Source: Promethearchaeia archaeon
GTDB lineage: Archaea > Asgardarchaeota > Lokiarchaeia > Sigyniarchaeales > SOKP01
Assembly (NCBI GenBank): GCA_029856105.1
Contig: JAHQWH010000015.1
Location: 164,543-228,542, forward strand
Length of the DNA stretch: 64,000 bases
Direction of reading: 5' to 3'
The notes below the pieces were generated by a model that saw only the letters and a list, made by a program, of their open reading frames with translations, ran no database searches and had not been told where the DNA came from. A program made the position numbers and the translations under genes. Below, in pieces: positions 24,246 to 52,954 of this stretch. Every line of letters begins with the position of its first letter. Positions within the stretch are counted from its first letter, which is position 1.

Positions 24246-25190
24246 GTGGTATTAAAAATGGTCCGACATTTAACCAAAATTTCTGACTTTTCTAAAGCAG
24301 AATGTGAGAATGTAATTAATAAAGCAATAGAAATTAAGAAGAATCCAGACAAATTTGACACTGCCTTAAAAGGAGAGACGCTTTTAATGGTATTTGAAAA
24401 ACCATCGCTAAGAACTAGAATCTCTTTTGAAGTAGGAATGCAACAGTTAGGTGGTCATGCGATTTTTTATTCAATAAAGGAATCTCCTCTTGGCAAGAAA
24501 GAAAATATTCACGACACAGCAAAAACTGCCTCGAGATTCGTTCATTTAATAGCAGCAAGAGTGTTTAAAAGACATGATATTTGGGATTTAGCCCAATATG
24601 CAGATGTCCCAGTAATTAATATGCTTGACGATTTCGCGCATCCGTGTCAAATGATTGGGGATTTTTTAACTATAAAAGAAAAGAAAGAAAGATTGGAAGA
24701 TTTAAAAATAGCCTACTTTGGAGATGCGTATAACAATGTTACCTACGATTTAATGCGAATAGCCGCTATGTTTGGTCTAAAGTTAGATGTTGCTTGTCCA
24801 GAGGGAACAGCTTATACGCCTGAACAAATTGTTCTTGAAGAGGTGGCTCAAATTTCAAAAAAAACTGGAGCAAAAGTGAATGTAGTTCATAATGCTTTCG
24901 ATGCTGCAAAAGATTCTGACATAATTTATACCGATTCTTGGATGTCTTACGGTATTCCAGTTGAAGAAGAGGATGACCGAAGGAAGATTTTCATGCCATA
25001 TCAAGTATCTCTAAAAATAATGAAAGCCGCGAAACCAGACGCAATTTTTATGAATTGTTTACCGGCAAAACGAGGTTACGAACAAACCGCTGAAGTTATT
25101 GATGGTTCTCAATCAATTGTATTTGATCAAGCAGAAAATAGATTACATGGTCAAAAAGCAATTATGCTCTTTTTACGAGAAAAATTTTAA
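24246..25190 (+). CDS. argF: Ornithine carbamoyltransferase
   Basis: FEKPSLRTRISFEVGMQQLGGHA (SxRTR), DDFAHPCQMIGDFLTI, FMNCLPAKRGYEQTAEVIDG. Confidence 0.93.
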   Translation: MVLKMVRHLTKISDFSKAECENVINKAIEIKKNPDKFDTALKGETLLMVFEKPSLRTRISFEVGMQQLGGHAIFYSIKESPLGKKENIHDTAKTASRFVHLIAARVFKRHDIWDLAQYADVPVINMLDDFAHPCQMIGDFLTIKEKKERLEDLKIAYFGDAYNNVTYDLMRIAAMFGLKLDVACPEGTAYTPEQIVLEEVAQISKKTGAKVNVVHNAFDAAKDSDIIYTDSWMSYGIPVEEEDDRRKIFMPYQVSLKIMKAAKPDAIFMNCLPAKRGYEQTAEVIDGSQSIVFDQAENRLHGQKAIMLFLREKF

Positions 25191-25254
25191 ATAGTAAGTT
25201 AGATATTATTATTTTTTCAATTTTGGTAATTATCTAACTACTAGAGGTTTTTTT

Positions 25255-26169
25255 TTGAAAACATTAATCGTTGCGCTTGGAGGAAATGCCCTCATTAAAC
25301 CTGGGGAAAGAGGAACCCCCGAACAAATGATTAATAATCTACAATCCCCTATTAAACAAATTGCAGAATTATCTGAAGAGTATAATATTATTATTACCCA
25401 TGGCAATGGCCCTCAAGTAGGTGCGCTACTCCTTCAACAAGAAGCTACCGATGAGATTACAAGAATGCCTTTACAAATTTTAGTAGCCGAAACTCAAGGA
25501 CAGATTGGATTTTTAATTGAATCGACCCTTGATGAAGAGCTCATGCACCTTGGGATTGACCTTGATAAATATTTTATTACTGTTTTGACTTATGTTGAAG
25601 TTGATCCCAACGATCGAGCGTTTAAACACCCAACTAAACCAATTGGACCTATATATAAAAAAAAGCAACCTGGATATGTGAAGACTTCCAAAGGTTGGAG
25701 GCGGGTAGTTCCATCACCAAAACCATTAAGAATTGTTCAATCACGAGAAATTAAAAAGTTAATCCAAGAGAACTTCATCGTTATATCTTGTGGTGGTGGT
25801 GGAATTCCTGTAATGAAGGAAGGAACTCGCTTTCAAGGTATTGAAGCCGTTATCGATAAAGATCTCGCAAGCGCAAAGTTAGGCGAACAAGTAAACGCAG
25901 ATATTTTAATAATTGCTACAGATGTAGAAAAAGTGGCGTTAAATTACGGCAGAATTGATTATAAGTACCTCGATAGGGTTTCAACAACAGATGCAAAAGA
26001 ATACATGAAGCAAGAACATTTTCCTCCTGGAAGTATGGGTCCTAAAATACAAGCAGTAATAAATTTCTTAGAATCTGGTGGCGAGCAAGCCATTATAACT
26101 TCAATTGAAAAAATTAAAGAAGCTTTAGAGGGTACATCCGGTACCCATTTCTTTATTAAGGATAATTAA
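25255..26169 (+). CDS. arcC: Carbamate kinase
   Basis: IVALGGNALIKPGERGTPEQM, ITHGNGPQVGALLLQQEA, VISCGGGGIPV, GSMGPKIQAVINFLESGG; TTG start. Confidence 0.94.
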   Translation: MKTLIVALGGNALIKPGERGTPEQMINNLQSPIKQIAELSEEYNIIITHGNGPQVGALLLQQEATDEITRMPLQILVAETQGQIGFLIESTLDEELMHLGIDLDKYFITVLTYVEVDPNDRAFKHPTKPIGPIYKKKQPGYVKTSKGWRRVVPSPKPLRIVQSREIKKLIQENFIVISCGGGGIPVMKEGTRFQGIEAVIDKDLASAKLGEQVNADILIIATDVEKVALNYGRIDYKYLDRVSTTDAKEYMKQEHFPPGSMGPKIQAVINFLESGGEQAIITSIEKIKEALEGTSGTHFFIKDN

Positions 26170-26280
26170 TTTATATAAAATAAGCAGATTATACCCGTAA
26201 ATCAAATAATTCTTAATTTCTATATAAAATAAGATTATGTAATAAATATATAATTATAAATAATCTAAAATAGCATATAC

Positions 26281-26940
26281 ATGGTTAGAAAAATTGATAA
26301 AGATATCAAGCAATACTATGCCGACAGAGCATATGAATATAATAAGACATATTTAAGACCTGAACGTCAAAAAGATATTAAAAAACTTCATAAATTGCTA
26401 ACCACCCTATTAAAAGGTCATTTGGTACTTGAGGTTGCATGTGGAACTGGCTATTGGACTAAGACAATTGCATCGGTTTCAAAATTTATTACTGCTGTTG
26501 ATGTAAATGATGAAGTTCTTCAAATAGCAAAAAGTCGCAGAATTCCTTCAGATAAGGTAATTTATGTTCAAGATGATGTTTATAAATTAAATAAAATTCA
26601 AAATAATTTTTCTGCTGGTTTTGCTGGTTTTTGGTGGTCGCACATATTAAAATCTAAATTAAAAAGATTTATTGCCTTATTTCATTCAAAGCTTCAACCA
26701 AACGCTCTTGTTATTTTTATTGATAATCGACGTGTGAAGGGAAGCTCTACACCAATAAGTCGAATTGATATTCATGGAAATTCTTACCAAATAAGGAAAT
26801 TAGAGGATGGTCGAGAATATGAAATATTGAAAAATTTTCCTACTAAGAAAGAAATTCGCGAAACTATTGGAAATAAAGTTAAAAATCTTAAGATTAAATT
26901 TTTGACATATTTTTGGATTGTATCATATAATATTGAATAA
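26281..26940 (+). CDS. Class I SAM-dependent methyltransferase
   Basis: LVLEVACGTGYWTKTIASVSKFITAVDVNDEVL. Confidence 0.8.
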   Translation: MVRKIDKDIKQYYADRAYEYNKTYLRPERQKDIKKLHKLLTTLLKGHLVLEVACGTGYWTKTIASVSKFITAVDVNDEVLQIAKSRRIPSDKVIYVQDDVYKLNKIQNNFSAGFAGFWWSHILKSKLKRFIALFHSKLQPNALVIFIDNRRVKGSSTPISRIDIHGNSYQIRKLEDGREYEILKNFPTKKEIRETIGNKVKNLKIKFLTYFWIVSYNIE

Positions 26941-27105
26941 TATGTTTCATAAACGGACTTATTTGACATAAATAAATCTCACATAAAAACAAAGTTAATT
27001 TTTAATTTACAAAAAAAAATAGTTGTATCTGATTTTGGGAAAAATTTTTTAAAATTACGGTTATAACCCAATTTTTATATAAAAAATAAGTTAGATTTTA
27101 ATTCT

Positions 27106-28365
27106 TTACGCTACCAGCACATTTTCGATAATTTTCAAAGCCCAATCGATTTGATCTTTAGTTATAATTAGAGGCGGGGCAAAACGAATAATTGTAGAAT
27201 GAGTGTGTTTGGCCAACACGCCCTTATCTTTAAACATTTCGACTATGTGCCTTGCATCTGATTCAAATTCAATCGCTAATAATAGACCTTTACCTCTAAC
27301 CTCTTTTATTGGAACTATAGTTTTCTTTTTTGCGATATTTCTAAGCCCTTCTAGAAAATAACCTCCAAATTCTTTGGCTCTTTGAGCTAAATGGTCGTCA
27401 ATATGAATCTCTAACGATTTCATAGCAACCGCACTAGCTAAAGGGTTTCCTCCAAATGTGCTTCCATGCGTTCCAGGTTTAATAACATCAGGACCAATTA
27501 TATCTTTAGTAGTGACTATTGCAGAAACGGGATAAACGCCTCCGCCAAGCGCCTTTCCAAGTAACATCGCGTCAGGCTTCACATTTTCGTGGTCACATCC
27601 AAAAAACGCCCCAGTTCTTCCAAAACCAGTCTGAATCTCGTCAGCAATCATCAGAACATTGTACTTTGTACAGATCTCTCTAACTTTTTTTATGTATCCT
27701 TCAGGAGGGATTTTTACGCCAGCCTCTCCTTGAATTGGCTCAAATAGGAACGCCGCTACTTTTTCAGGGCCGATTTCTAAAATTATATTTTCTAATTCTT
27801 CAGCATCTCCATACGGAATAATTATAAACCCAGGAGTGTAAGGTCCGAAGTTTCCATAGTATCTTACAGCTTCAATATCCGTACTAAATCCTGCTATTGT
27901 TATTGACCTTCCATGAAAATTATCTCTGCAAACAATAATTTTAGCTTCGTTTTTAGGAATCTTCTTTTTAATATAACCCCATGCTCTCGCAACTTTTAAA
28001 CCAGAAGAGACCGCTTCAGTTCCCGTGTTCATTGGAAGCGCCATTATTCCAGAATTGTTTGGATCGTTGATATGCGGTCCAACGACTTCGCACAATTTTT
28101 TTAAAAAGGGACCCATCATATCGTTATAGAACGCACGAGATGTTAAAGTGACCTTATCTGCTTGTTCTTTTAAAGCTTTTATAATTTCGGGGTGACAATG
28201 CCCCGTATTTTGGGAAGAATAGGCAGATAAACAATCAATATATTTATTTCCTTCGGGGTCGTATACCCATACACCCTCCGCTTTTGAAATAACGACGGGA
28301 ATCGGGTGATAATTATGAGCGCAGTATTCATTATCCAAATCTATATAATATTTTGAGTCGGGCAA
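27106..28365 (-). CDS. rocD: Ornithine--oxo-acid aminotransferase (class III)
   Basis: NYHPIPVVISKAEGVWVYDPEGNKYIDCLSAYSSQNTGHCHPEI, IADEIQTGFGRTG, LLGKALGGGVYPVSAIV, GTHGSTFGGNPLASAVA. Confidence 0.9.
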   Translation of the reverse strand: MPDSKYYIDLDNEYCAHNYHPIPVVISKAEGVWVYDPEGNKYIDCLSAYSSQNTGHCHPEIIKALKEQADKVTLTSRAFYNDMMGPFLKKLCEVVGPHINDPNNSGIMALPMNTGTEAVSSGLKVARAWGYIKKKIPKNEAKIIVCRDNFHGRSITIAGFSTDIEAVRYYGNFGPYTPGFIIIPYGDAEELENIILEIGPEKVAAFLFEPIQGEAGVKIPPEGYIKKVREICTKYNVLMIADEIQTGFGRTGAFFGCDHENVKPDAMLLGKALGGGVYPVSAIVTTKDIIGPDVIKPGTHGSTFGGNPLASAVAMKSLEIHIDDHLAQRAKEFGGYFLEGLRNIAKKKTIVPIKEVRGKGLLLAIEFESDARHIVEMFKDKGVLAKHTHSTIIRFAPPLIITKDQIDWALKIIENVLVA

Positions 28366-31711: not shown

Positions 31712-31854
31712 AGGTACAGCAAATCTTTTGGGAAAGCTGTGGGATAAACGAACCAAATATCAAGGTGTTTTTTAAGGAAAACTATACAAATGATTAAATT
31801 TTTATATATCGTAATCGAAAACCTTGATTCAAACAATTTAAAGCAATAATTATT

Positions 31855-33177
31855 ATGAAGAATAAAATCATTATCAATCTCATTGTAGCAAATTTGCTAT
31901 GGAGTTTTATTCCTGTTATAGTATCAGGTTTGTTCAACGAGGTTTCCGTTTTAATGGTTATTTTTCTAAGATTTTTAGTATCAGGAGTTATTCTGTTTCT
32001 TCTTGCGATTTTATTGATATTTTTAAACAATAGATTCACTTCAAATAAAAAAATTCCATTTGAAGTCCTTAAAATTATTTATATTCATAAGAATAGAAGG
32101 TTTTTCAGGTTAAGGAACATCTATTATTTCGCTATAATGGGGTTTTTTGGCATCATAATGCAACTTATCTGGTATTTTATGGCTTTAAAAGTTACAGAAA
32201 CTATTGCTTTAGCAATGATCGGATTCCAAGTTACTATTATACTCGTAGCTCTTTACGAACACGGAATCAAATCAGAGAAACTGGATATATTCAAAATGCT
32301 ATATCTCTTGTTGTTATTTGTTTCAATAGGAATCATAATAAGCGTAAAGAGTCAAGAAGCTGCTTTGCATGGAACAGGATTTTCTTTGATTGGGTTGATA
32401 TACATTACGCTCTTCACGTTAAGCCTCGCATTCTTTCAAATAACTATAAATAGAGATATTTATTCGAAACATGAGCTAAAAATCGCTAATAAAAATCGAT
32501 ACTATAAGATCGTTCGTCTCCTGATAAAAATTTCAAGTACATTCTTAATAGGTGTAATATTCATGTTTCCGTTTCTTTTGGTTTTTCAACTCGTTTTTCC
32601 AATTTCTGATTTAACTACTGAAACCGTTAAATTCTACGGTGAATTCCCGAATATGTTTAATATCCTAATGCGGGGGGATGTAATCTTTTTGATAATTTTT
32701 TCTACAATACTTCCATTCCTGCTTGTATTTCTTACGAGCGTGTATTGGAAACCCTATAATTTGACCTATAGCCAATGGAATAGTATCTTAACTCTAATAG
32801 AACCAATAGGTGCTTTGATTTTTGGTATAATTTTTGTTGGTGAGTATTTCCCGTTAGAACTCTTATTGGTGGTATTCTTTTTATTAATTGTCTCGATTTT
32901 ATTCCGGTATGCTCACGAATTGAAAAACATTGTCAACGCGTATATTCTTTTAAACAATAATATTGGAAATTTAAAGAAATTACCAATGAAATTATTGAAG
33001 TTTCAAGGAGTAATGAGCGTAGACACCTTAGCAGGAACGCACGACCTCTTACTAAATGTTAAGAGCAGTTCCATAAAAGATTTTTATTATTTAGTAGATA
33101 AACAAATAAAAAAGTTAGACGAAGTTAAAAATGTCAAAATTCTTTTTGTTAATGAAATAAGTAAATTAGAAATATAG
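31855..33177 (+). CDS. EamA/DMT-family transporter with C-terminal Lrp/AsnC ligand-binding (RAM)-like domain
   Basis: Ten-TM EamA-like region, then MKLLKFQGVMSVDTLAGTHDLLLNVKSSSIKDFYYLVDKQIKKLDEVKNVKILFV, which matches the 33187 RAM protein in pattern. Confidence 0.7.
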   Translation: MKNKIIINLIVANLLWSFIPVIVSGLFNEVSVLMVIFLRFLVSGVILFLLAILLIFLNNRFTSNKKIPFEVLKIIYIHKNRRFFRLRNIYYFAIMGFFGIIMQLIWYFMALKVTETIALAMIGFQVTIILVALYEHGIKSEKLDIFKMLYLLLLFVSIGIIISVKSQEAALHGTGFSLIGLIYITLFTLSLAFFQITINRDIYSKHELKIANKNRYYKIVRLLIKISSTFLIGVIFMFPFLLVFQLVFPISDLTTETVKFYGEFPNMFNILMRGDVIFLIIFSTILPFLLVFLTSVYWKPYNLTYSQWNSILTLIEPIGALIFGIIFVGEYFPLELLLVVFFLLIVSILFRYAHELKNIVNAYILLNNNIGNLKKLPMKLLKFQGVMSVDTLAGTHDLLLNVKSSSIKDFYYLVDKQIKKLDEVKNVKILFVNEISKLEI

Positions 33178-33186
33178 ATTATATGG

Positions 33187-33441
33187 TTGGAAATTATGAC
33201 AATGAAGGCAATAACTTTATGTAAATTAGGGATGAGCGTAATAGAAAAGGTAATTGACGAATTAAAAGAAATCCCTCAAATCAAACGCGTAATGTCTTTA
33301 ACTGGCGATTACGACGTGTTGATTGAAATTGTAGTGGATTCGTCCGAAGAGTTGTACAGCATTTTTGCTAAAAAAATTGACTTAATAGAAGGAATAATTG
33401 AGTCAAATACGCATGTAATAATGCGATCTTGGGAGAAATAA
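33187..33441 (+). CDS. Stand-alone Lrp/AsnC ligand-binding (RAM) domain protein
   Basis: ITLCKLGMSVIEKVIDELKEIPQIKRVMSLTGDYDVLIEIVVDSSEELYSIFAKKIDLIEGIIESNTHVIM. Confidence 0.82.
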   Translation: MEIMTMKAITLCKLGMSVIEKVIDELKEIPQIKRVMSLTGDYDVLIEIVVDSSEELYSIFAKKIDLIEGIIESNTHVIMRSWEK

Positions 33442-36747: not shown

Positions 36748-37719
36748 TTAATCCATCAACCCCTTAGCTTTAATATTGTCCTTTTCTAAAGAACCAACGC
36801 TGCTCGAACTTGTATCATAATATTTCATAAAAATATCCTCGAGATCGGGACTTTGAATCTCTAAATCACTTACCTTTCCGACCTGTCCTAGAATGTCTAT
36901 GATTTCGGTTAGATTTTCGCGAGAAACTGTAAGAGAAACGCTCGTCTCACTTGTTCTTAAGTTATCAACAATCCCGGTTGGGATTTTAGAGTTAAATTTT
37001 TGAAGCTCCAAAGCGGTGGGAAATTCGATCGTAATTTCTTTTAAGGCGATTTTTTTCAAACTTTGAACGGAATCTAATTCCACAATCGTTCCTTCTCGAA
37101 TAATTCCAACGCGATGGGCAACTTTTTCGACTTCCCCTAGTAAATGAGAGCTTAAAAGAACCGTCGAGCCAAAATTTTTTTGCTGTTCGTAAAGAATTTT
37201 GTAATATTCGGCCGTAATAAAAGGATCCAAACCCGAGGTTGGCTCATCAACTATTAATAGCTCAGTTTCTGGCGCAAAAGTAAGGACAATTCCGATCTTT
37301 TGCTTGTTCCCTTTGCTAAGTTCTTTCACTTTCCTGTCTAAAACTAAGTCAATACGCTCTGCCAACTCCTCAATCTTTCTATTGGGTACAGGTTTGTTAT
37401 ACATCTTTAAAAGGAATTGAAGATTTTTTCGCACCGTTTTGTCTTTATAGAATCCCAAGTCACCAGGTAAATATGCTGTTCTCCGTCGAATTTCAGTGCT
37501 ATGTTGCTTCACATCCAATCCAAATACTTGAGCTTCTCCGGAAGTTCGTCGAATGAAATTAAGTAAGACCCTAATTGTGGTGGTTTTCCCAGCTCCATTT
37601 GGTCCGAGCAGCCCAAAGATCTCACCTTTTTTTACCTCAAATGTTAAATTCTCAATTCCACGAGATTTCCCATAATATTTTGTGAGAGCTTTTGTTTTTA
37701 TTACGAAGTTTTCATCCAT
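36748..37719 (-). CDS. ABC transporter ATP-binding protein
   Basis: GLLGPNGAGKTTTIRVLLNF, LSKGNKQKIGIVLTFAP, LLIVDEPTSGLDP. Confidence 0.95.
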   Translation of the reverse strand: MDENFVIKTKALTKYYGKSRGIENLTFEVKKGEIFGLLGPNGAGKTTTIRVLLNFIRRTSGEAQVFGLDVKQHSTEIRRRTAYLPGDLGFYKDKTVRKNLQFLLKMYNKPVPNRKIEELAERIDLVLDRKVKELSKGNKQKIGIVLTFAPETELLIVDEPTSGLDPFITAEYYKILYEQQKNFGSTVLLSSHLLGEVEKVAHRVGIIREGTIVELDSVQSLKKIALKEITIEFPTALELQKFNSKIPTGIVDNLRTSETSVSLTVSRENLTEIIDILGQVGKVSDLEIQSPDLEDIFMKYYDTSSSSVGSLEKDNIKAKGLMD

Positions 37720-37820
37720 ATCTCTAAAATATATTTATAAAATAAAAAGATTTATCGATTGAAATTTTCTATTACTTTTATCTACACTGCAGCATAAAAT
37801 TTCTGTAGCTATTCATAACT

Positions 37821-38336
37821 TTATTCGCCTTGATGATTGATCAATTCTTTTTCGATCGTTTTTATCAATTCGAGAGAAAAAGGGATGGAATTAGCCAGAA
37901 CATTGACTAACTGATAAATTTTGTCAAAACCATGCAAATTTTCTAACAAAACCTTTTCTTTTTCAATACCATCTTTGATAGCATTAATGCTTTCAGCAAA
38001 TCTTGAGATGCCTTTTGTAAGGTCCCTGAATGAATGAACAAAAGCTATATTGGGATTTTTCATGGAATAAGTAATTTCTCCCGTGGTAGACACACTAGTC
38101 TTTTCGATAAGGTCCATAGAAATTAATTTTGTTAATTCTTGTGATATCGTTCCTCGCGAAAATCCCGTTAGTTCTTGTAATTTTTCTTGAGTCAAGGATT
38201 TTCTGGTAATAAAATAAATTCTTATTGTCGTGAAAGTAGTTTTTTGCCCAATAAAAAGAGAGTAGGACAATAGGAATTTAAAAATATCCTTTTCAATCGC
38301 TCTTATTTCATCGTCGAATTCTTCAATTGTAATCAA
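37821..38336 (-). CDS. wHTH regulator, C-half type
   Basis: FITRKSLTQEKLQELTGFSRGTISQELTKLISMDLIEK; 4-nt overlap with the upstream regulator. Confidence 0.8.
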   Translation of the reverse strand: MITIEEFDDEIRAIEKDIFKFLLSYSLFIGQKTTFTTIRIYFITRKSLTQEKLQELTGFSRGTISQELTKLISMDLIEKTSVSTTGEITYSMKNPNIAFVHSFRDLTKGISRFAESINAIKDGIEKEKVLLENLHGFDKIYQLVNVLANSIPFSLELIKTIEKELINHQGE

Positions 38337-39115
38337 GTATTATCCTCCTTCAACTCTTTTATAAAACTTGCTTCTTTAATTTTTTCTAGCAATTTCACAT
38401 TGTATTCGAAAAAGTTAATCATTTCGGTTACTCTTTTTGAGAGAATATCATAACCCCTCTTATCTTTATATTTATCTAATTCTTGAACCTTACTTTGTAA
38501 AAACTTTATTGCGAGTTCATTAGATTCAGATTTATAGGATCCAATATTAGAAGCAATATCAGCCATATTAACACCTAAAGCGTAGATATATTCGCGTGCT
38601 CCTTCTAAAGGTTCTTTTTTTATTGCAGGAACACTCGATAATACTTTTAAAGTCTGAGAGATAGCCCCCTTTGAAAATCCTGTTAATTCTTTAAGTTGTG
38701 TCTGAGTTAGGTTTTCATGAAGTAGTAAATAGCCTATTATTGAACCAAAAACAGCATTTTGACCCTTAACTTTACCGGCATCTACCAGAATTTCTATTAA
38801 TCTCTTTTCATAAACTCTAACTTTCCCTTCATATATGTGTGATTTACTTTTTAAATGTTGAGTATAACAAAGATCAAATGTTTCTTCCATTGCTTTCCAT
38901 AAGGTGTTAGCTTCGTCATCGTCAACATCGAGTTCTTTAATATTTCTTTTTAATTGATGTAACGAATCATTGTCCCATAGTGGATTAGTGAGGAAATCTT
39001 TAATTTTTTCTTTTAGGTAATTAATATTTCTACCCTTATTTTGTCTCAAATATTCTTGAGTTATGGTCTCCGTTAATTCTAAAATATATCTAAATTTTTC
39101 TGAATTAGTTTGCAT
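38333..39115 (-). CDS. wHTH regulator, N-half type
   Basis: YLLLHENLTQTQLKELTGFSKGAISQTLKVLSSV. Confidence 0.8.
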   Translation of the reverse strand: MQTNSEKFRYILELTETITQEYLRQNKGRNINYLKEKIKDFLTNPLWDNDSLHQLKRNIKELDVDDDEANTLWKAMEETFDLCYTQHLKSKSHIYEGKVRVYEKRLIEILVDAGKVKGQNAVFGSIIGYLLLHENLTQTQLKELTGFSKGAISQTLKVLSSVPAIKKEPLEGAREYIYALGVNMADIASNIGSYKSESNELAIKFLQSKVQELDKYKDKRGYDILSKRVTEMINFFEYNVKLLEKIKEASFIKELKEDNT

Positions 39116-39219
39116 TGATAGGGGGTATGAAATCTAGCCACTTTAATTTATATTCCTTACATATAACATGGGATTACTTGTTTTTAAGTGTTTTCAAATT
39201 ACATGAATTTTGAGGATTT

Positions 39220-39242
39220 CATTTTCACTAAAAATGAAAATG
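39220..39242. promoter_or_regulatory. Inverted repeat CATTTTC-N9-GAAAATG in divergent intergenic region
   Basis: Perfect 7-bp arms next to a TATA-like cttatatatgc, between the HTH-HTH-ABC and ABC operons. Confidence 0.5.
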
Positions 39243-39249
39243 CTTATAT

Positions 39250-40266
39250 ATGCAAAAAAATATTAGTATTATAATAAGGAAAGATTTTTCAAAAAATGTG
39301 AAAAATAAAATGAACGCGATCGAAATTAAAGATTTAAAAAAATATTATAACAAAGGAAAAATCAAAGCAGTTGACGGAATTTCGCTTAAAGTTCCAAAAG
39401 GAGCAAGATTTGGATTTTTGGGACCAAATGGTGCAGGAAAAACAACAACTATTAGATGCATTTTGGGTTTTCTTAATCCCGATAGTGGAATAACTATGAT
39501 CAATGGCGAAGAAATTAACCCAAAAAAAGATGTTAAAATTCGGAACCAAATTGGATACTTACCAGGAGAACTTGGTCTTTATAGATATATGACTGCAGAT
39601 CAATTGATTAAATATTTTGCTAAACTATTTGACATCGAAATCGACTGGAAATTTATTAGAGATGTCACGGAGAGACTTGAAATTGAAATGGATAGGAAAA
39701 TGGGCGTGCTCAGTAAAGGAAACAAACAGAAAGTAGGCGTTTTAACCGCCTTAATGGGTAAATTTGATATATTAATTATGGATGAACCCACTTCTGGTCT
39801 TGATCCTTTAATGCAATCGGAATTTTATAGGATAATTGCTGAGCGCCAAGAAGAATCTAATTGCACTGTGTTTGTATCAAGTCATGTGCTTCCTGAAATT
39901 GAAAAATTTTGCGATAATGTTGCAATTATTAAAAATGGCAAAATTGTAGAAGTTTCCAGTGTTCAAGAGCTTAAAAAAAAAAGTCTAAAACGAATTGAAC
40001 TAGATTTCGAAAACAATAAAAGTTTAGCGGAATTTAATTCATTTCTTTTGTCAGATTTCCCTGAAGCTATTGTAAAACAAAATTACCAAGAAAGAATTGA
40101 ATTTTTACTCCCTTACAACCAGTCTCGCGATATATTACACTATATAAGTAAAAATAAATGGGCGGGAATGTCTATTAAAGACTTTAACATTACTCACTCA
40201 ACTTTGGATAATATATTTCTCGAATATTATAAGGATTCTAATTCTAAAGGAGGTGGAGTTGTTTGA
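39250..40266 (+). CDS. ABC transporter ATP-binding protein
   Basis: GFLGPNGAGKTTTIRCILGF, LSKGNKQKVGVLTALMG, LIMDEPTSGLDP. True start may be ATG 39310 (MNAIEIKDLKKYY). Confidence 0.95.
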   Translation: MQKNISIIIRKDFSKNVKNKMNAIEIKDLKKYYNKGKIKAVDGISLKVPKGARFGFLGPNGAGKTTTIRCILGFLNPDSGITMINGEEINPKKDVKIRNQIGYLPGELGLYRYMTADQLIKYFAKLFDIEIDWKFIRDVTERLEIEMDRKMGVLSKGNKQKVGVLTALMGKFDILIMDEPTSGLDPLMQSEFYRIIAERQEESNCTVFVSSHVLPEIEKFCDNVAIIKNGKIVEVSSVQELKKKSLKRIELDFENNKSLAEFNSFLLSDFPEAIVKQNYQERIEFLLPYNQSRDILHYISKNKWAGMSIKDFNITHSTLDNIFLEYYKDSNSKGGGVV

Positions 40267-41078
40267 AGTTAATTCAAACTACTATAAAGGAAATAAGGTA
40301 CAATATTAAAGCTATTATAATACTGGCACTATGTTTTGGATTATTCTTTTTAGCATTTATGGCTATGTATGATCCTACTCTCTTTGAAGATATGGAAGCA
40401 TTACTTGAGAGTTATCCTGAAGCAATTGTACAAATGGTGGGTGACTATGTTGCATTATCTACATTTGGAGGGTTTATAAATGTTTACCTTTTCTCAATGA
40501 CTTGGTTTTATTTTGGTTTTTATTTCATCATAAAAACAGCGCAAGATATACCAAAAGAAATCGAAGATAAAACGATTGATATTATTTTATCAAAACCTAT
40601 AAAGCGTTGGAAATTTGTAATAGGTAAATATATACGACATATCATAACCGCTTTTATTGTTGTTGCCTTTTCAAGTTTTGGAGTTCTTATTGGTGTTTTC
40701 GCCTTTCCAACCATAATTCCTAGCGAAGTATACTTTAACGAGATATATACGGCTTTCTTTTGGCTTTTTGTATTTTTAGTTGCTTTGATTAGTACATCGT
40801 TATTCTTTTCGACATTTCTCCAATCCAAGCGAGCACTTACTTTAAGCTTTGCTTTTGTAACATTTTTTTACATTGTAGGAATATTTTGGGAAGCATTTCC
40901 AGAAGCAATACAGGGTATGAGATTTGTTAGTATCTTTTACTATTTTGAAACATCTAATCTACTCGTAAATCATGTGTGGGATAATGTCTTCCTAAACATT
41001 TTAATTCTAACGGGATATTCAGCTTGTATGGTAGGTTTATCAGTGCTTATTTTTAATAAGCGAGATATTCCCGTTTAA
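40263..41078 (+). CDS. ABC-2 type transporter permease
   Basis: Six-TM; IEDKTIDIILSKPIKRWKFVIGKYI; paralog of 35929..36747. Confidence 0.87.
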   Translation: MKLIQTTIKEIRYNIKAIIILALCFGLFFLAFMAMYDPTLFEDMEALLESYPEAIVQMVGDYVALSTFGGFINVYLFSMTWFYFGFYFIIKTAQDIPKEIEDKTIDIILSKPIKRWKFVIGKYIRHIITAFIVVAFSSFGVLIGVFAFPTIIPSEVYFNEIYTAFFWLFVFLVALISTSLFFSTFLQSKRALTLSFAFVTFFYIVGIFWEAFPEAIQGMRFVSIFYYFETSNLLVNHVWDNVFLNILILTGYSACMVGLSVLIFNKRDIPV

Positions 41079-41084
41079 TTTTTT

Positions 41085-41603
41085 TTATTTTATTTCCAGA
41101 CTATCAGCAAATTTTTCATATAGTTTAATCGCTGGTATATAGAAATTTATAACATTCATAATATTATTGTAGCCGTTCATTGTTTCTAGTTTACTACGCT
41201 TATTTTCCATTTCATTTTTCATTTTTTCGAGTTCACCTTCCCATTTTAACATAACAGTGATAATATTCTTAACTCTAGTGTTAGAAATTTGTTCAACCGA
41301 TTCAAATGTATATACTTTTTTACGAATACTAGGGATTTTTTTTCTAATGATCATTCCGGAGTCTACAAGGTTATTTAATTCTTGCGAGATTTTCCCAGAG
41401 GAATAACCAGTGAGATTTTTGAGGAGATTTTGGGAAATTTCTTTTCTTAATATTATGTAGATCAATATTCTTGAAGTAATTTCATTTCTAGTAGAATATA
41501 ATGGAGATTTAATTAAGTAATCAACGATTTCTTTCTCAATTTTCCTAACATTTAGATCATAAGGATCTTCGTCATCCAATTCGTCATACACTCCCTTTTT
41601 CAA
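41085..41603 (-). CDS. wHTH regulator, C-half type
   Basis: ILRKEISQNLLKNLTGYSSGKISQELNNLVDSGMI. Confidence 0.8.
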   Translation of the reverse strand: MKKGVYDELDDEDPYDLNVRKIEKEIVDYLIKSPLYSTRNEITSRILIYIILRKEISQNLLKNLTGYSSGKISQELNNLVDSGMIIRKKIPSIRKKVYTFESVEQISNTRVKNIITVMLKWEGELEKMKNEMENKRSKLETMNGYNNIMNVINFYIPAIKLYEKFADSLEIK

Positions 41604-41606
41604 TCA

Positions 41607-42122
41607 CTATTCTCCGCTAAATGTTTCACTCATAGAAGAAGCAATATTCAAAACCTTGTTAAACCCATCCAATAACACATTAATTTGAGTGTGAAGATTA
41701 AGATATCCTTCCTTATTCCTAAATTCATCCAGTTCGTTTAATTTATCTTCCAAAAATTTAGAGACTATAGTAAAATGTTCAGATGAAACCTCACTAGTTC
41801 TTTCAATTAGTTGTGGGAGGTTTCCAGTTAGTAAATATTGATATTTATTGCTCATTGCTATTCTCTCTTTTTGTACAACGCCAAGCTTAATTAAATTACT
41901 TAGTGTTGTAGAAATTGTACCTGTAGAATAGCCAGTCAACTCTTTCAAATTAGATTGAGTAAGTTTATTGTGAATCATTAAATATCCAAGAATCTCTTGA
42001 ATTTTTGAAGGGGTATCCTTGTTTTTACCAATATCTATAAAGAATTTGATAAGCGTTTTTTCGTACTCTTTGATTTTTCCTCTAAATCTAAAATCGTGAT
42101 CTTGTGATAGATTTGAATTCAT
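41607..42122 (-). CDS. wHTH regulator, N-half type
   Basis: YLMIHNKLTQSNLKELTGYSTGTISTTLSNLIKLGVVQ. Confidence 0.8.
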   Translation of the reverse strand: MNSNLSQDHDFRFRGKIKEYEKTLIKFFIDIGKNKDTPSKIQEILGYLMIHNKLTQSNLKELTGYSTGTISTTLSNLIKLGVVQKERIAMSNKYQYLLTGNLPQLIERTSEVSSEHFTIVSKFLEDKLNELDEFRNKEGYLNLHTQINVLLDGFNKVLNIASSMSETFSGE

Positions 42123-44573: not shown

Positions 44574-45362
44574 TCATTTATATTTTCTATTATAGATTTC
44601 TTTCACAAAATAAGATGCTACATTCTCCGAAAATGTATTAGGTCCAAAACCCGCATCAAAACCTAATTCTTTCGCAAGTTCATTCGAAATTCTTGGACCA
44701 CCACAGACTAAAATGATTTTATCTCTTATATCTTCAGCTTCCAGTAGATCGACTAGATTAGTTAAATTTCTTACATGGATATCCTTCTGCGTTACAGTTT
44801 GAGAAACAAGAAGTACGTCAGCTTTTAGTTCTATTGCTTTTTTTACGAATTCTTCATTTGTTACCTGACTTCCAAAATTATATGCTTCAATCATTTCATA
44901 TCGCTCTAGGCCGTAATGACCTGCAAATCCCTTCATGTTCATAATTGCATCGATTCCTACAGTATGTGCGTCTGTTCCAGTCGTAGCGCCAATAACAACC
45001 AATTTTCGTTTTATTAGTGTTTTTATATGGTCATTAATTTCTTCCATAGTTAGTGCTTCAATGTCTATGGATTCCACTTTTATTTCTGTATAGTTAATAG
45101 AATGTTTGAAGCTCCCATATAACACGAAATACGTAAAACTCTTATCTAACGATACATGATAAACAACTGAAGGATTTTCTAATCCCATCTTTTTAGCTAT
45201 TTCTAACGCAGCAAAAGTAGCTTTTTCTCCATCATCTACAGGAAGAGTAAAACTAACTTGAATTTTACCGTCATTCATTGTATCTCCATAAGGTTTTATT
45301 CGAGTCAGATCTAAATTCTTATCGAACTCTTGCTTTTCAGTAGAATAATGTCCTCCACCCAT
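44574..45362 (-). CDS. kamE: Lysine 5,6-aminomutase beta subunit (B12-binding)
   Basis: TDAHTVGIDAIMNMKGFAGHYGLERY (DxHxxG cobalamin motif) and VCGGPRISNELAKELGFDAGFG. Confidence 0.93.
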   Translation of the reverse strand: MGGGHYSTEKQEFDKNLDLTRIKPYGDTMNDGKIQVSFTLPVDDGEKATFAALEIAKKMGLENPSVVYHVSLDKSFTYFVLYGSFKHSINYTEIKVESIDIEALTMEEINDHIKTLIKRKLVVIGATTGTDAHTVGIDAIMNMKGFAGHYGLERYEMIEAYNFGSQVTNEEFVKKAIELKADVLLVSQTVTQKDIHVRNLTNLVDLLEAEDIRDKIILVCGGPRISNELAKELGFDAGFGPNTFSENVASYFVKEIYNRKYK

Positions 45363-46940
45363 TTATTTTTCGCCTCCCAAGTTTAATTCTATTGACATGT
45401 ATTCTAAGAACGGATTAAAATATTCTTTATCTTTATAAATTACTCCATCCAATCCTTTCCCCCCATCAATCTGTCTTTTGATCCCAGCAAAAATACCTTT
45501 CTCGATGGTCTTAAATAGTCCTTCCTTTTCAATTTTAGTCAGAAGCTCAAGAGATTTCTTCAATACTTCGTTTGCGCGTTGTTGCATTATTCCACCTTCT
45601 TTAAACATGATTTCGTCTCCTAAATCTTTCATATTTTTAAAAATATATTTCGCATTTTCAATGGATAAAGCCCGATCTGACATGAATGGAGTGTGAATTG
45701 CTTCCGTTAACATTCCGAGTAAGTGAATTCTCTGATTTGTAAGAATTGTAATCATGTTGAATAGCGCATCTTGAACGTGACCTTTAAATATATTACCTGT
45801 CATATATTTTGTTGGAGGCATGTATTTCAAAGGAGCGTTTGGAAATATTTCTCGCGCCATTTGTGCCTGAGCAAGTTCGTAAACGAATCCATTTTCCAAC
45901 TCAGGGTTCATTTCAAACGCATGACCTAAACCCATTTGTTCTTCTTTTAACCCCGCTAATTTTGCGAACTGTTCATTTATGAATTGTGATGCTAATACTG
46001 TGTGAGCTGCTTCATATGCATCATCAGTAGTAAGATAATTATCCTCTCCCGTATTAATGATCACTCCAGCAAATGCATTAATCATCCTTGAAAAATATTG
46101 ATCGATTATCGTTCTTTGCATGTTTATATCCCTAAATAAGATTCCATACAGCGCATCGCTTAACATCATATCTAATCTTTCAAATGCTCCCATGGCAGCA
46201 ATTTCTGGCATACAAAGTCCCGAACAGTAGTTAGTGAGTCTAATATATCGACCTTCTTCCTCACTAACCTTATCTAAAGCTGACCTCATGAGATGGAAAT
46301 TTTCTTGTGTTGCATATGTCCCCCCAAATCCTTCAGTTGTGCTACCATAAGGGACATAATCTAATAAACTTTGGCCCGTAGAGCGTATGACAGCTATGAC
46401 ATCGGCGCCTTGTTTTGCAGCTGCTTGAGCTTGGATTATATCTTCAAAAATGTTCCCTGTGGCAACAATTATATAGATTAGAGGTTCAACTTTTTCTCCA
46501 TATTTCTTAATTAATTCTTCTCTTTTTTGTTTGTTTCGTCTAATTATATCTATATTCTTCTGTATAATCGATGTTAATGCTTCTTTTATCTCTGATAAGC
46601 TCCCCCTTGGAAAATCTGTTATGATTAATTGACCTTGACTGATTTTTTCTGCGATATTTTGGGGTGATAAATTTGTGTGTATAACCGCGTTCCCAAGGTA
46701 CAATGCAACACCCCTATTTATTTGCCCTGTTTTTATGATATGATCAACTACAATGTTGGGTAGAGGAACTCCAAATTCATCAGTTCCATCGATCCCTAAT
46801 AATCTACATATTGTCCTCTCAATTGAGGTCGTAGTGTGATTGTCTATAAATTTTTGAGTATCATTAGCAATTATTCTGGCTATGTTTCTGGCTTTTTCGA
46901 CTAATTCAAAATTCAAATTTAGCTTGCTTTTTGTTTTCAA
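45363..46940 (-). CDS. kamD: Lysine 5,6-aminomutase alpha subunit
   Basis: Characteristic KamD sequence; 1-nt spacing from kamE. Confidence 0.93.
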   Translation of the reverse strand: MKTKSKLNLNFELVEKARNIARIIANDTQKFIDNHTTTSIERTICRLLGIDGTDEFGVPLPNIVVDHIIKTGQINRGVALYLGNAVIHTNLSPQNIAEKISQGQLIITDFPRGSLSEIKEALTSIIQKNIDIIRRNKQKREELIKKYGEKVEPLIYIIVATGNIFEDIIQAQAAAKQGADVIAVIRSTGQSLLDYVPYGSTTEGFGGTYATQENFHLMRSALDKVSEEEGRYIRLTNYCSGLCMPEIAAMGAFERLDMMLSDALYGILFRDINMQRTIIDQYFSRMINAFAGVIINTGEDNYLTTDDAYEAAHTVLASQFINEQFAKLAGLKEEQMGLGHAFEMNPELENGFVYELAQAQMAREIFPNAPLKYMPPTKYMTGNIFKGHVQDALFNMITILTNQRIHLLGMLTEAIHTPFMSDRALSIENAKYIFKNMKDLGDEIMFKEGGIMQQRANEVLKKSLELLTKIEKEGLFKTIEKGIFAGIKRQIDGGKGLDGVIYKDKEYFNPFLEYMSIELNLGGEK

Positions 46941-47015
46941 TGTTATTATAACCTCTAAAGGAAATTAACTTTTTTAAAATTTATAATTCATTTAGTAATT
47001 CAAACAAATAATACT

Positions 47016-48053
47016 TTAGTATTTACTCGGTCCAAGATCATAAATCGGGATAGTGACTCCTCTTTTTAATTCGTTTAAGAACTTAGATTTATCAAATTTA
47101 TAACCTAAAGGCGAAGTTGGATTGATTGTGACGACAATAATTTTAATTTTATTTAAAACTTTTATGACTCCACCTTTTTTAGAATATTTTTCAAATGTTG
47201 TTTTATTTAAAAACAATTTTGTTGCATCAGGGACCAAAATTTTAATATTTCTATAAAGATCTGATTTTTTCATAAACTCCTCAAGGAATTTATCAGTGAC
47301 TGCTCCGCTAATTACAAGAACTTTAGATTTATTAGTCATAAAATTTAAGATTTCGTCTACAGAATCCAAAGCTGTTAATAGTTCTAACATTTTAACTGAA
47401 TGATCTTCATTAATAATTCCAATTTTAGCCTTGGTTATGATATTTTTTGCTAAATTAATTATTTGAATATTTTCTTCATTTTCTAGAGATATTAAATTCA
47501 TTGCATGATGTGTTATATCAATAACTTCTTGTATTTTCTTAGATACAGAGGCTCCAGTAGAAAGAATTGTCGCTTCCGATACAAGAGGTGAAGCATAAGA
47601 TCTACGATCAAATGCTCCATCAATTAGTATCAAATTACTACCTAAATTTAATAATTCTTTACATACAAATGTTAATTCTGAGTTAATAGAAGGTCCTGCC
47701 AATTCAATATAGCCATTTGATATAACTCTTGCAATAACGATTTCTCCCATTGGAGTGTTGATTCCAGTTTTCTTTATGATCTCAATTTTAGCTTCACTGT
47801 TTTGAATACTGCGAGCAGCTGTAGCCATTAATACCCCTGATTCAACAAATATGCGAGGTTTAGGTAAAGTCGTGATAGCGTCATATTTTTCACCATCTCG
47901 CCCAATAGATGTAAGTCCTAAGATATAATTTCCTTTTAAAGTTTGAATAATGTGATTTAATGTAGTAGTTTTACTAACATTCTTAGCAAGTCCTATAATT
48001 GAGATTATTTTATAATCCTTTATTTTTTCTTGTATGAAATTAGCAAATTCCAT
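47016..48053 (-). CDS. kamB: Putative lysine 5,6-aminomutase reactivase subunit, KamB-like P-loop-type protein
   Basis: IISIIGLAKNVSKTTTLNHII (P-loop-like), LTSIGRDGEKYD, LILIDGAFDRRSYASP; position between kamD and kamA. Confidence 0.65.
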   Translation of the reverse strand: MEFANFIQEKIKDYKIISIIGLAKNVSKTTTLNHIIQTLKGNYILGLTSIGRDGEKYDAITTLPKPRIFVESGVLMATAARSIQNSEAKIEIIKKTGINTPMGEIVIARVISNGYIELAGPSINSELTFVCKELLNLGSNLILIDGAFDRRSYASPLVSEATILSTGASVSKKIQEVIDITHHAMNLISLENEENIQIINLAKNIITKAKIGIINEDHSVKMLELLTALDSVDEILNFMTNKSKVLVISGAVTDKFLEEFMKKSDLYRNIKILVPDATKLFLNKTTFEKYSKKGGVIKVLNKIKIIVVTINPTSPLGYKFDKSKFLNELKRGVTIPIYDLGPSKY

Positions 48054-48167
48054 TTTAATGAGAGTATTAAATGTATTTATATGATTTAATAAGAAGGAAT
48101 AATAAATTAAGATAACTTTAATTATCTACTAAATAATTCATCATTTCTTATTCTAAATAAAAGATAT

Positions 48168-49406
48168 TTATTTGGATAGATTTCTTTTCCTAATATTTCT
48201 TTCCAAATCATCTGGTTCAATTGTTATTTTTTGACCGCTTAATAAAGCTGAAACTCCAATTTGATTTTCATCATCTTCGCAATGACAGCCCGGAATATAG
48301 TTATCTGGTTCTTCGTACGTTGTAATAACACCCTCAAAATTTCTTAACACGACCCGTTTATTTCCCTGAGAAATTGTATAATCTGGCATTACTGGTATCT
48401 TTCCTCCACCCCCTGGAGCATCTACTACGAATGTGGGGACGCATAGGCCAGATGTGTGCCCCCTTAAACCTTCAATGATTTCAATACCTTGAGCAACGCT
48501 GGTTCTAAAATGCTCAAGACCAACAGAGAGATCGCATTGATAAATATAGTAAGGTCTTACTCTAATTTTTACAAGGTCTTGGACTAATTTTTTCATAACA
48601 TGAATACAATCATTTACTCCTTTCAATAGTACCGATTGATTTCCAAGTGGGATTCCCGCATCTGCTAACATTTCACATGCTCTTTTAGAATCTTCTGTTA
48701 TTTCGTTAGAATGATTGAAATGGGTATTAAACCAAATAGGATGATATTTCTTAATCATTTCACATAGTTCAGGAGTAATTCTTTGAGGCATAACTACGGG
48801 CGTTCGAGAACCTAATCGTATAATTTCTACATGAGGAATTTCTTTCAATCTGACCAATATCTCTTCTAATTTTTTATCAGAAATTAATAACGCATCGCCT
48901 CCAGATAAGAGTACATCTCTTATAGCTGGAGTTTCTTGTATATATTCGATACATTTACCGATTTGATCTTGGGGAGGTGCTTTATCGTGATGACCGGCAA
49001 ATCTCTTGCGAGTACAATGTCGGCAATACATCGAACAATTTTCAGTAACTAAAAACAAAACTCGATCAGGATATCTATGGGTTAGACCTGGAACTGGCGA
49101 ATCAACATCTTCGTGAAGAGGATCTACAAGATCGCTCGACGATATGTGTAATTCGTGGATAGTAGGGATAGCTTGTTTTCTTATAGGATCGTAAGGATCG
49201 TGAGGGTCGATTAACGACAAATAATAAGGCGTAATTGCCATTCGCAATTCTTTTAAGATTTTTGGGTCGTCCTCCTCTTTAGTTAGCGAAATGTATTGTT
49301 TAAGGTCTTCTAATGTACTTATTCTATTCTTAAATTGCCAGCGCCAATTATTCCAATCTTCGTCGCTTACTTCGCTAAATAATTCTTTTCTTCTATTTAC
49401 TCTCAT
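48168..49406 (-). CDS. kamA: Lysine 2,3-aminomutase
   Basis: ENCSMYCRHCTRKRFAG radical SAM CxxxCxxC; VLLSGGDALLISD; FVVDAPGGGGKIPVMPDY. Confidence 0.95.
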   Translation of the reverse strand: MRVNRRKELFSEVSDEDWNNWRWQFKNRISTLEDLKQYISLTKEEDDPKILKELRMAITPYYLSLIDPHDPYDPIRKQAIPTIHELHISSSDLVDPLHEDVDSPVPGLTHRYPDRVLFLVTENCSMYCRHCTRKRFAGHHDKAPPQDQIGKCIEYIQETPAIRDVLLSGGDALLISDKKLEEILVRLKEIPHVEIIRLGSRTPVVMPQRITPELCEMIKKYHPIWFNTHFNHSNEITEDSKRACEMLADAGIPLGNQSVLLKGVNDCIHVMKKLVQDLVKIRVRPYYIYQCDLSVGLEHFRTSVAQGIEIIEGLRGHTSGLCVPTFVVDAPGGGGKIPVMPDYTISQGNKRVVLRNFEGVITTYEEPDNYIPGCHCEDDENQIGVSALLSGQKITIEPDDLERNIRKRNLSK

Positions 49407-49447
49407 AACAATTCACTTTACTTATTATGTTATCTTCATATTCTAAA

Positions 49448-50488
49448 TTATTTTACATATTTTTCTTCAAATATTTTTCGTAATTTTTTAGACTCGCGTA
49501 ACTCATCTAAAGCTATTTGAGCGTGTCCTTTGGTATAACCATTCCCGATTATCATCGTGACATCTTTTCCAACGCCCTCAGCACCTAATGCGGCTTTTGT
49601 AAAACTAGTAGCCATAGAAAAGAAATACACGATACCTCCATCCTTAACGGGTAAAATACTTGACATTTCAGTATTTGATATACTTAGACAATTAATAGAA
49701 ATGTCAACTTCATTTCCATTGTTAATAGCAAATACCTTTTCTAAGACATCTAGCGGTTTAAGGATGTCAGCAATAATCACCTCATGGCAAAAACCTGTTT
49801 TCTTAAGGAACTCAGCTCTTTTTTCATTTCTAGCTTGCCCTATTACTCTACCATTCGGTCCAACAATGCTTTTTGCTATAAAAGAGCACATTAATCCAGA
49901 TTTTCCAGTTGCCCCAAGTATTAAAACAGAGTTTCCCGGTTTAACAATCTTTTTTGTTTGAGCCGGAGCACCCGCTACATCAAGAGCTGCTAAGGCCAAT
50001 TTATCGTCCATATCTTTTGGGATTTTAGCGTAAATTCCACTTTCAAAAAGTACGGCTTTACCTACAATTTCAACTCGATCTATATCTAATTTGATATCTA
50101 AAATTTTTTCAATCTTAAGTGGTGTCAAAGAAAGAGAAACTAATGTAGCAATTTTGTCTCCTTTTTTTAGATCGGTTTTTCCTGTCAGATCTGGTCCAAT
50201 TTTTTCTACTTTACCAATCAGCATTCCACCTGAACCAGTAACCGGATTTTGCATTTTTCCCCTTTCTTGAACAATTTCTATTATTTTAGCTTTTATTTTT
50301 TCTATATCTCCTCCCGCTTCTTCTTTAAGTTGAGTAAAGCTTGCGGAGTCGATATTCAAATAATCGACATCAATTAATATTTCGTTGTCGAATATGGTCG
50401 TATCGTTGGATATTTTAAAAGCAGGTTGAGGAAGCGCCCCTTTAGGCTCAATGACTCTATGAGTTCCGTATTTATTACCTTTTGCCAT
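49448..50488 (-). CDS. kdd: L-erythro-3,5-diaminohexanoate dehydrogenase
   Basis: GTHRVIEPKGALPQPAFKISND; ILGATGKSGLM; between kamA and kce. Confidence 0.9.
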   Translation of the reverse strand: MAKGNKYGTHRVIEPKGALPQPAFKISNDTTIFDNEILIDVDYLNIDSASFTQLKEEAGGDIEKIKAKIIEIVQERGKMQNPVTGSGGMLIGKVEKIGPDLTGKTDLKKGDKIATLVSLSLTPLKIEKILDIKLDIDRVEIVGKAVLFESGIYAKIPKDMDDKLALAALDVAGAPAQTKKIVKPGNSVLILGATGKSGLMCSFIAKSIVGPNGRVIGQARNEKRAEFLKKTGFCHEVIIADILKPLDVLEKVFAINNGNEVDISINCLSISNTEMSSILPVKDGGIVYFFSMATSFTKAALGAEGVGKDVTMIIGNGYTKGHAQIALDELRESKKLRKIFEEKYVK

Positions 50489-50612
50489 ATAAAGGTCTCC
50501 ATCTAAATCTTAAAAAAATAATATTATCATATCTAATCTTACTTAAGAATCATTAGAATTATAAATTTTTCAAAACAAAATTAGAAAAATAAGTTAAAAA
50601 AAAAAGATTGGA

Positions 50613-52166
50613 TTAAGCTTTGTATCTGGCATTTCCATCCATGATCTTTCTATTGAGAATCATGTCATTTACCTGCATCCCTGCAAGCAATGTTGCAAAA
50701 ACGCTATGAATGAATTTTGGTTGGAAAAGGCCTTTTACGGGTGTTCTCATTTTTAAGCGTGTCCTTCCGAAATTATCCGGATAAGGTGCCATATCGTAAA
50801 TTGCTCCTGAAGGTGAACCAGAATATCGGGCATAAGTCGCTGGAGTCGATACATCAAGAACCTTAATGTGTTTTCTCAGATCAGGAATGAGGTATTTTTC
50901 AGTTTTTTCTATAAAGAAATCAGCCCATTTTTGTTTTTTTTCATTGTATCTTTGAGGATCTTTTTCTCTTAATTCTGCCCAGTCGTCAATGCCCATAGGA
51001 ACAATCCTCAAGGCGATATTTGGTTTTCCACCCGTAGTTAACGAGGGACAGATAACTCCAAGTCGAAATTCTTCATCTGTATAACCAATTTTACCTTGTA
51101 TCATATCATCAAATAATCGATCGTAAATATCTCCTCCTGTAGTAATCACGCTGTAGCCACAATCTAAACCTAATGCACCCAGATCAATTTCGTTATCAAG
51201 TCCAATGCTTATATTCATTGATGATGTCGACATCTTAACATTTTCGACTTTATCAGCATACTTTTTATCCAGTTCACGAATGATATCTAGACCCACCATT
51301 TCTTTCATAGCAACAATAGGATCTACTGTGGTTACTACTAAATCCGAATAAATTTCACTTCCATCCTCTAATTTAACACCTTTCACTTCCCCGTTTTCAA
51401 CCAAAATTTTGTTAACTTTAGTATTAAGCATCAGTTCTCCACCTAAACTGAGATATTTTTCCTCAAATTTCTTAGGAAACTCAATAAACCCTCCTTTAGG
51501 TCGGAAAGCACCATCGAGTAGTGAGTTCATCGCAGATACAGGTACGGGTGCCGAAACTCTATCAGCCGGTAATCCACTAAATTCAGCAAATATGGTAAAT
51601 ATTTCAATAACATCAGGTTCCGTTATATTGAACTGAGCAAAATAATCCTTGAAAGTTCTCCTAGAGTTTTTTACGATTTTTGGGCAAGTAAGGAGCATTT
51701 TAAGGATTTCAATTAAATTTGGATCAAGTTTAAGTTTGAACAATTCTAAATACAAGGCTCTTGAATAATCCAAAAAGTTCTCGATTTCAGCTGCGTTCTT
51801 CGGATATTTTTCCATCAACTCATTTTTAAAATCTTCAAATCCTGACGGTAAATCAATCGTTTTTACCTTATTTGTTTTAATATCTACTAAGAAAATCCGC
51901 ATATAGTAACCTTTATACTCCTTAAGCTCAATATCGATATCAAAAAATTCTAATAACTCTGTAATATTAGGTATCATTTGGCATGTGTCGAATAAATATC
52001 CTTGCCGTTCATAGGAGGTAACATAGCCACCAGATTTTGGTTCTTTTTCGATTATTAAAACGGGTTCTTTTTTAACATCATGGTATTGCGCCCATGTTAA
52101 ACCACTGCTTAAGCCGGTGATACCTCCACCAACTACTATTAATCCATATTTATTTATTTTATTCAT
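50613..52166 (-). CDS. FAD-dependent oxidoreductase, phytoene desaturase/CrtI-like
   Basis: GLIVVGGGITGLSSGLTWAQYH, GGYVTSYERQGYLFDTCQMIPNI, PKGGFIEFPKKFEEKYLSLGGELMLNTKV. Confidence 0.8.
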   Translation of the reverse strand: MNKINKYGLIVVGGGITGLSSGLTWAQYHDVKKEPVLIIEKEPKSGGYVTSYERQGYLFDTCQMIPNITELLEFFDIDIELKEYKGYYMRIFLVDIKTNKVKTIDLPSGFEDFKNELMEKYPKNAAEIENFLDYSRALYLELFKLKLDPNLIEILKMLLTCPKIVKNSRRTFKDYFAQFNITEPDVIEIFTIFAEFSGLPADRVSAPVPVSAMNSLLDGAFRPKGGFIEFPKKFEEKYLSLGGELMLNTKVNKILVENGEVKGVKLEDGSEIYSDLVVTTVDPIVAMKEMVGLDIIRELDKKYADKVENVKMSTSSMNISIGLDNEIDLGALGLDCGYSVITTGGDIYDRLFDDMIQGKIGYTDEEFRLGVICPSLTTGGKPNIALRIVPMGIDDWAELREKDPQRYNEKKQKWADFFIEKTEKYLIPDLRKHIKVLDVSTPATYARYSGSPSGAIYDMAPYPDNFGRTRLKMRTPVKGLFQPKFIHSVFATLLAGMQVNDMILNRKIMDGNARYKA

Positions 52167-52223
52167 GAATTAAAAAATTGATTTTATACTATTTAAATAT
52201 TTTAATTTCCATTTTTATAAAAA

Positions 52224-52931: not shown

Positions 52932-52954
52932 AATTTAATATTCCTTATTTTATT

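Follow-up and report, generated by a model that had tools for sequence, protein, structure and literature searches.

Organization of the locus

The window, the 64,000-nucleotide stretch of DNA analysed here (genome G000), carries on its forward strand a gene for a 440-amino acid (aa) EamA/DMT transporter with a RAM tail (31855-33177), followed by a gene for a stand-alone RAM protein of 81 aa (33196..33441). The membrane domain of the transporter, delimited by the Pfam EamA match and hydropathy, comprises residues 1-357 (31855..32925, forward strand) with about 10 predicted transmembrane helices. EamA matched residues 4-162 at 34.8 bits, above the cut-off of 28.2, and the family-averaged hydropathy peaks lie near residues 15, 49, 102, 125, 154, 187, 238, 285, 319 and 341. 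Among the fusion relatives that we scanned, EamA was detected at E ≤ 0.01 in 31/40 and 11/26. The C-terminus was assumed to be cytosolic by DMT precedent; a full-length model built on an alignment of close relatives had a pLDDT of just 37. The closest named relatives, assemblies labelled 'Candidatus Lokiarchaeota', encode copies of the transporter that are 91-93% identical to that of the window. By eye, we noted the sequence TTATATAT (31802..31809, forward strand), a possible archaeal TATA box some 50 bp ahead of the start of the transporter gene.

The last ~80 residues of the transporter are a complete RAM (Lrp/AsnC ligand-binding) domain (residues 358-440 and the stop codon; 32926..33177, forward strand), as seen by Pfam, profile comparison and structure prediction. 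PF01037 matched residues 375-432 at 29.9 bits (cut-off 25), and a profile of 40 fusions matched DM1 (2e1a), a Pyrococcus stand-alone RAM, at E 2.4e-13, covering nearly the whole DM1 RAM. The predicted structure of residues 358-440 has the order beta-alpha-beta-beta-alpha-beta (pLDDT 87, pTM 0.75), and its best PDB match was again FFRP-DM1 (2e1a; TM 0.82/0.90, 1.6 Å), followed by STS042 and Lrp proteins. Since the alignment used for this model was small and had the free RAM among its sequences, we consider the sequence profile the stronger evidence. The original prediction, that this DMT transporter ends in a RAM-like sensor whose tail should show a RAM/ferredoxin-like fold, was thus borne out on both points. 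The tail has the G-x-x-D ligand-loop motif of RAM domains at G394-T-H-D397 (33034..33045, forward strand); across the 40 aligned fusions, no column of the protein other than G394 is invariant, and D397 shows a conservation of at least 90%.

For the downstream gene, homologues that start MTIKAI make ATG 33196 (MTMKAI...), 18 bp past the transporter stop codon, the most likely start. Its earlier description as an Lrp/AsnC ligand-binding protein holds (PF01037, 54.9 bits), but its length is more likely 81 aa than the 84 aa that are counted from TTG 33187. The best PDB match of this protein is PH1519/FL11 (E 1.3e-5). Neither it nor the transporter has a Pfam match to the N-terminal HTH that characterizes Lrp/AsnC regulators. 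With no HTH, a length within the ~75-90 aa range and a full ligand motif, the protein (P0002) has the features of a stand-alone RAM. The motif consists of T-G-D-Y-D in the ligand loop (33301..33315, forward strand), where T is found in 92%, G in 99% and D in 97% of 88 free RAMs, and S-N-T in the last strand (33403..33411, forward strand), a T/S-x-T motif. Within its own genome, it is the only clear stand-alone RAM, and of about 10 EamA proteins encoded there only the transporter of the window has a RAM tail. The role of stand-alone RAM proteins was called unclear in a 2010 review (PMC2995911).

The fusion is recurrent in Asgard archaea

A homologue of the transporter is present in 36/65 genomes of the window's family. 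The survey of EamA-RAM fusions that had been called for covered 228 Asgard and ~165 other archaeal genomes, and the profiles of two fusion subfamilies gave matches in 134/228 of the Asgard genomes (118 in a first search and 16 more in a second), showing that the fusion is no local oddity. Nearly all of these matches span the RAM tail, a few being fragments, and PF01037 was detected at E ≤ 0.01 in 26/26 and 37/40 of the fusions scanned. Several nearly complete relatives (for example, G003 and G042) are without the pair, which is thus accessory.

The same profile searches found no fusion in the ~165 other archaeal genomes sampled, where RAM-only proteins matched, though a very different DMT-RAM protein could escape these profiles. 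We also searched 122 non-Asgard archaeal genomes, partly overlapping with the ~165, using PF01037. Among the matches listed, the three RAM-bearing ORFs of the longest type (L199, L200 and L201, from another archaeal phylum) were considered as fusions outside Asgard archaea and rejected, reading instead as homocitrate synthase-like enzymes with a C-terminal RAM. A separate group of ORFs, 320-350 aa long with RAM matches, two in some, was seen in Asgard genomes (G000:C226:4963-5670, also G005, G016, G152 and G181); these possibly are fused sirohaem decarboxylase-like proteins.

Transporter and stand-alone RAM form a conserved pair

A same-strand gene for a stand-alone RAM adjoins the fusion in 80/84 judgeable loci, with a median gap of 16 bp. 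The count is based on 87 fusion loci. ORF calling placed a free RAM no more than 400 bp away in 79 of them, and translated search added one more (L021); two loci at a contig end (L051 and L115) and one masked beside the gene (L108) were left out of the denominator. The four exceptions (L044, L048, L049 and L050) all belong to one family, f4. In the window's family and f28 the free RAM follows the fusion (downstream), in f10, f12, f17, f18, f23 and f24 it precedes it (upstream), and in f11 and f14 there is one on each side. That the genes stay adjacent although their order has changed suggests that they are functionally linked. RAM proteins are common in archaea, and an ordinary transporter might come to lie beside an unrelated Lrp-like fragment; given adjacency in 80/84 loci of divergent lineages with changed gene order, the survey rules out such a chance neighbourhood for practical purposes, and we assign it a negligible likelihood. 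For the other stand-alone RAMs of Asgard and other archaea, no obvious DMT gene adjoins in the loci checked. These observations support a conserved unit, across Asgard archaea, of a transporter with a tail RAM and a stand-alone RAM.

Two variations on the arrangement were noted. Some loci have two stand-alone RAM genes per RAM-tailed transporter, in tandem downstream or flanking it (L043, L046, L047, L137, L138 and L055), and in three of the f4 loci (L048, L049 and L050) the RAM-tailed transporter gene lies closely 3´ of a gene for a ~500-aa RecA/KaiC-like ATPase, at a gap of 4-36 bp.

With regard to origin, for the free RAMs of either fusion subfamily the closest relatives are those of the other (E 3.8e-28), while the membrane parts of the two subfamilies resemble plain EamA proteins more than each other. 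In the tree, the subfamilies form two well supported separate clades, but grouping them in one was not rejected by the AU test (p 0.49). One very old fusion and two fusions are both possible.

Tail and free RAM differ in charge and ligand motif

The original prediction had described the tail and the free RAM as having the same pattern. This is correct at the level of profile and fold, but pairwise similarity is at noise level, with no BLASTP alignment and a mean identity of 21% within a locus. Their charges also differ, the tail core averaging +5.2 ± 2.6 vs -4.0 ± 2.5 for the free RAM. In 79/80 loci, no free RAM of the locus is as positive as the tail, and in 71 the signs are opposite, numbers to be read with the shared ancestry of the loci in mind; the basic character of the tails may in part be an effect of membrane closeness.

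The G-x-x-D loop is kept by both partners (≥97%; in 87 tails, G 100% and D 97%). The two partners differ at the T/S-x-T motif, whose third position is T or S in all free RAMs. The tail of the window's transporter lacks this motif, which is a feature of free RAMs and no formal family criterion, and in most tails the first T is replaced by a hydrophobic residue. The second T is kept in 34/42 B-type tails, and in most Loki-type tails it is replaced by I, V or L, such that both are lost. According to PDB titles, ST1022, crystallized with glutamine, was mutated at Thr132 and Thr134, residues that we infer to correspond to the T-x-T motif. RAM ligands bind at dimer-dimer interfaces (PMC2995911), and since ligands sit between dimers, the split of the motif would fit sites shared in a mixed oligomer.

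Between relatives, the free RAM was under the strongest constraint (dN/dS 0.02-0.06); the tail had values of 0.09-0.45 and the membrane part values of 0.15-0.19. These values bear on whether the RAM parts might be a clamp that holds transporter dimers together by oligomerization independent of any ligand, a reading that we consider quite unlikely. RAM domains are indeed oligomerization modules (PMC2995911), and the loss of part of the ligand motif from Loki-type tails would fit a clamp. However, no other feature of the fusion is as conserved as the G-x-x-D loop, and very strong purifying selection acts on the free RAM, in which the motif is complete.

Metabolic neighborhood

The window contains a complete lysine fermentation set on the reverse strand (44574-54173; kamA, kamDE, kamB, kdd, kce and kal), in which each gene product scored above its NCBIfam cut-off. 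The members are lysine 2,3-aminomutase, lysine 5,6-aminomutase alpha and beta, the reactivase KamB, KDD, KCE and KAL. Genes for ornithine carbamoyltransferase, carbamate kinase and ornithine aminotransferase, also above the NCBIfam cut-off, are grouped at 24246-28365, which suggests arginine, ornithine or citrulline catabolism near the pair. In 13 Loki-type genomes (genera g1, g8 and g9), the distance between the pair and lysine 5,6-aminomutase is 1-12 kb, with ~1.1 kb in six g8 genomes; in G152 it is ~18 kb, on a single 4.4 Mb contig. We considered lysine as the general ligand and rejected it, as proximity of the aminomutase to the pair is confined to some Loki-type genera, and the two often occur apart, many genomes having the pair but no lysine 5,6-aminomutase and many others the reverse. 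For the window's own lineage, the neighborhood hints at a basic amino acid (lysine or ornithine) as the ligand. The conserved neighbors in other lineages gave no clue to the substrate.

Other gene groups were recognized in the window by reading. Two genes similar to those for ATP-citrate lyase subunits (3717-6849) lie within 1560-8194 beside succinyl-CoA ligase-like and isocitrate dehydrogenase-like genes. At 36748-42122, two ABC ATPase/permease pairs lie beside clusters of small, related winged-helix-like proteins, and a longer protein similar to these small ones is encoded at 11578-12687.

A proposed RAM-gated transporter

Asgard archaea are the closest relatives of eukaryotes known so far, and many of them are believed to subsist on peptides and amino acids. 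Taking together both domains, the RAM fold of the tail, the conserved pairing and the conserved ligand-loop residues, we infer that the best reading remains the one first proposed, an exporter or importer that is gated by an amino acid and has a partner subunit as sensor. In specific form, the two-gene unit would be a ligand-gated secondary transporter with a heteromeric RAM sensor for a cytosolic amino acid, a proposal that we judge to have about an even chance of being right. The DMT domain would move a small metabolite; the likeliest cargo is an amino acid or a closely related compound, and the precedent of other DMT proteins makes export the likeliest direction. The RAM tail, presumed to be cytosolic, and the separately made RAM subunit would form a mixed RAM oligomer, like Lrp-type RAM dimers; a cytosolic amino acid would bind between subunits, the assembly would change, and transport would be switched. 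Such a switch could serve as an overflow valve in cells fermenting peptides and amino acids. There is precedent for mixed assembly, as stand-alone DM1 and FL11 form a hetero-octamer in vitro (PMC2995911). The opposite charges of tail and free RAM, and the T-x-T motif kept by one and lost by the other, would be indirect signs of it. Extended to all Asgard archaea with the pair, the proposal would define a class of RAM-gated secondary transporters in which the Lrp sensory domain, familiar from transcription factors, acts directly on membrane transport and the stand-alone RAM is an obligate subunit forming mixed ligand sites with the tail; our confidence in this broader version is likewise evenly balanced.

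Transport could instead be directed inward, with import blocked via RAM assembly by the very substrate that is taken up. The model here is methionine trans-inhibition of MetNI, whose C-terminal domain binds methionine at the dimer interface and inhibits transport (PMC10710835). Uptake systems exist among DMT members, but the 10-helix DME group, in which such proteins are placed, is named for export (PMC7997004), and while an importer would fit the pairing and the ligand-loop conservation equally well, we regard it as unlikely.

The transporter might also act as a membrane anchor that holds the free RAM or Lrp regulators and relays the transport state to transcription, in the manner of AmtB, which sequesters GlnK. 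In favor of an anchor, each genome has roughly 7-16 RAM matches, mixed assemblies of RAM proteins and Lrp regulators form in vitro (PMC2995911), and glnK-amtB is itself a conserved gene pair (PMC10710835). Nevertheless, the free RAM is without a DNA-binding domain, the gene it is partnered with is that of a RAM-tailed transporter and not an Lrp gene, and no Lrp gene is among the recurrent neighbors of the pair, leaving the anchor improbable.

The ligand-gated transporter, if correct, would give stand-alone RAM proteins a physiological role and would offer a testable post-translational control of amino acid flux in Asgard archaea. Independently of the mechanism, the pairing provides a conserved genetic partner for a stand-alone RAM protein.

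Comparison with known systems

Regulated transporters with fused sensor domains are known. Our full-text literature searches, which reached a minority of subscription papers and preprints such that an earlier mention is possible, found no regulated transporter with a fused Lrp/RAM sensor and no paper describing a RAM-tailed transporter. A survey of Asgard transporters lists many uncharacterized DME proteins and leaves the RAM domain unmentioned (PMC7997004). The pair looks like an undescribed means by which intracellular nutrient levels switch a transporter.

Each component has relatives. The transporter shares the EamA domain and, by prediction, ~10 helices with DMT/EamA proteins (DME, TC 2.A.7.3), but the plain EamA proteins of the same genome are ~275-335 aa long and lack a RAM tail, stopping after the final helix. 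Stand-alone RAMs (DM1/PHS023 and STS042) and Lrp/AsnC regulators (FL11/PH1519) have the same RAM fold, ligand loop and oligomerizing domain; however, the known RAMs are soluble and either tied to DNA-binding regulators or of unclear role, whereas here a RAM is fused to a transporter and the partner gene adjoins. The homocitrate synthase-like proteins likewise carry a RAM on a protein that does not bind DNA, but they are soluble enzymes. In Pseudomonas aeruginosa, the genes for an Lrp-type protein and an EamA-like transporter adjoin (PA2577/PA2576), but there the Lrp protein acts at the DNA, as a transcriptional repressor of the transporter gene, and no RAM tail was reported (PMC8707732).

MetNI, with its C2 domain, and ModABC are inhibited through a C-terminal cytosolic domain that binds the ligand at a subunit interface (PMC10710835), an arrangement like the one proposed for the Asgard pair, though both belong to the ABC importers, their regulatory domains are of other kinds, and neither has a separate subunit as partner. 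AmtB-GlnK, too, is a conserved gene pair, in which one gene encodes a transporter and the other a small sensor protein of the cytosol (PMC10710835), but the sensor is a PII protein rather than a RAM, and AmtB has no matching sensor domain of its own. The Asgard pair resembles MetNI trans-inhibition or AmtB-GlnK in how it would work and is a member of neither system.
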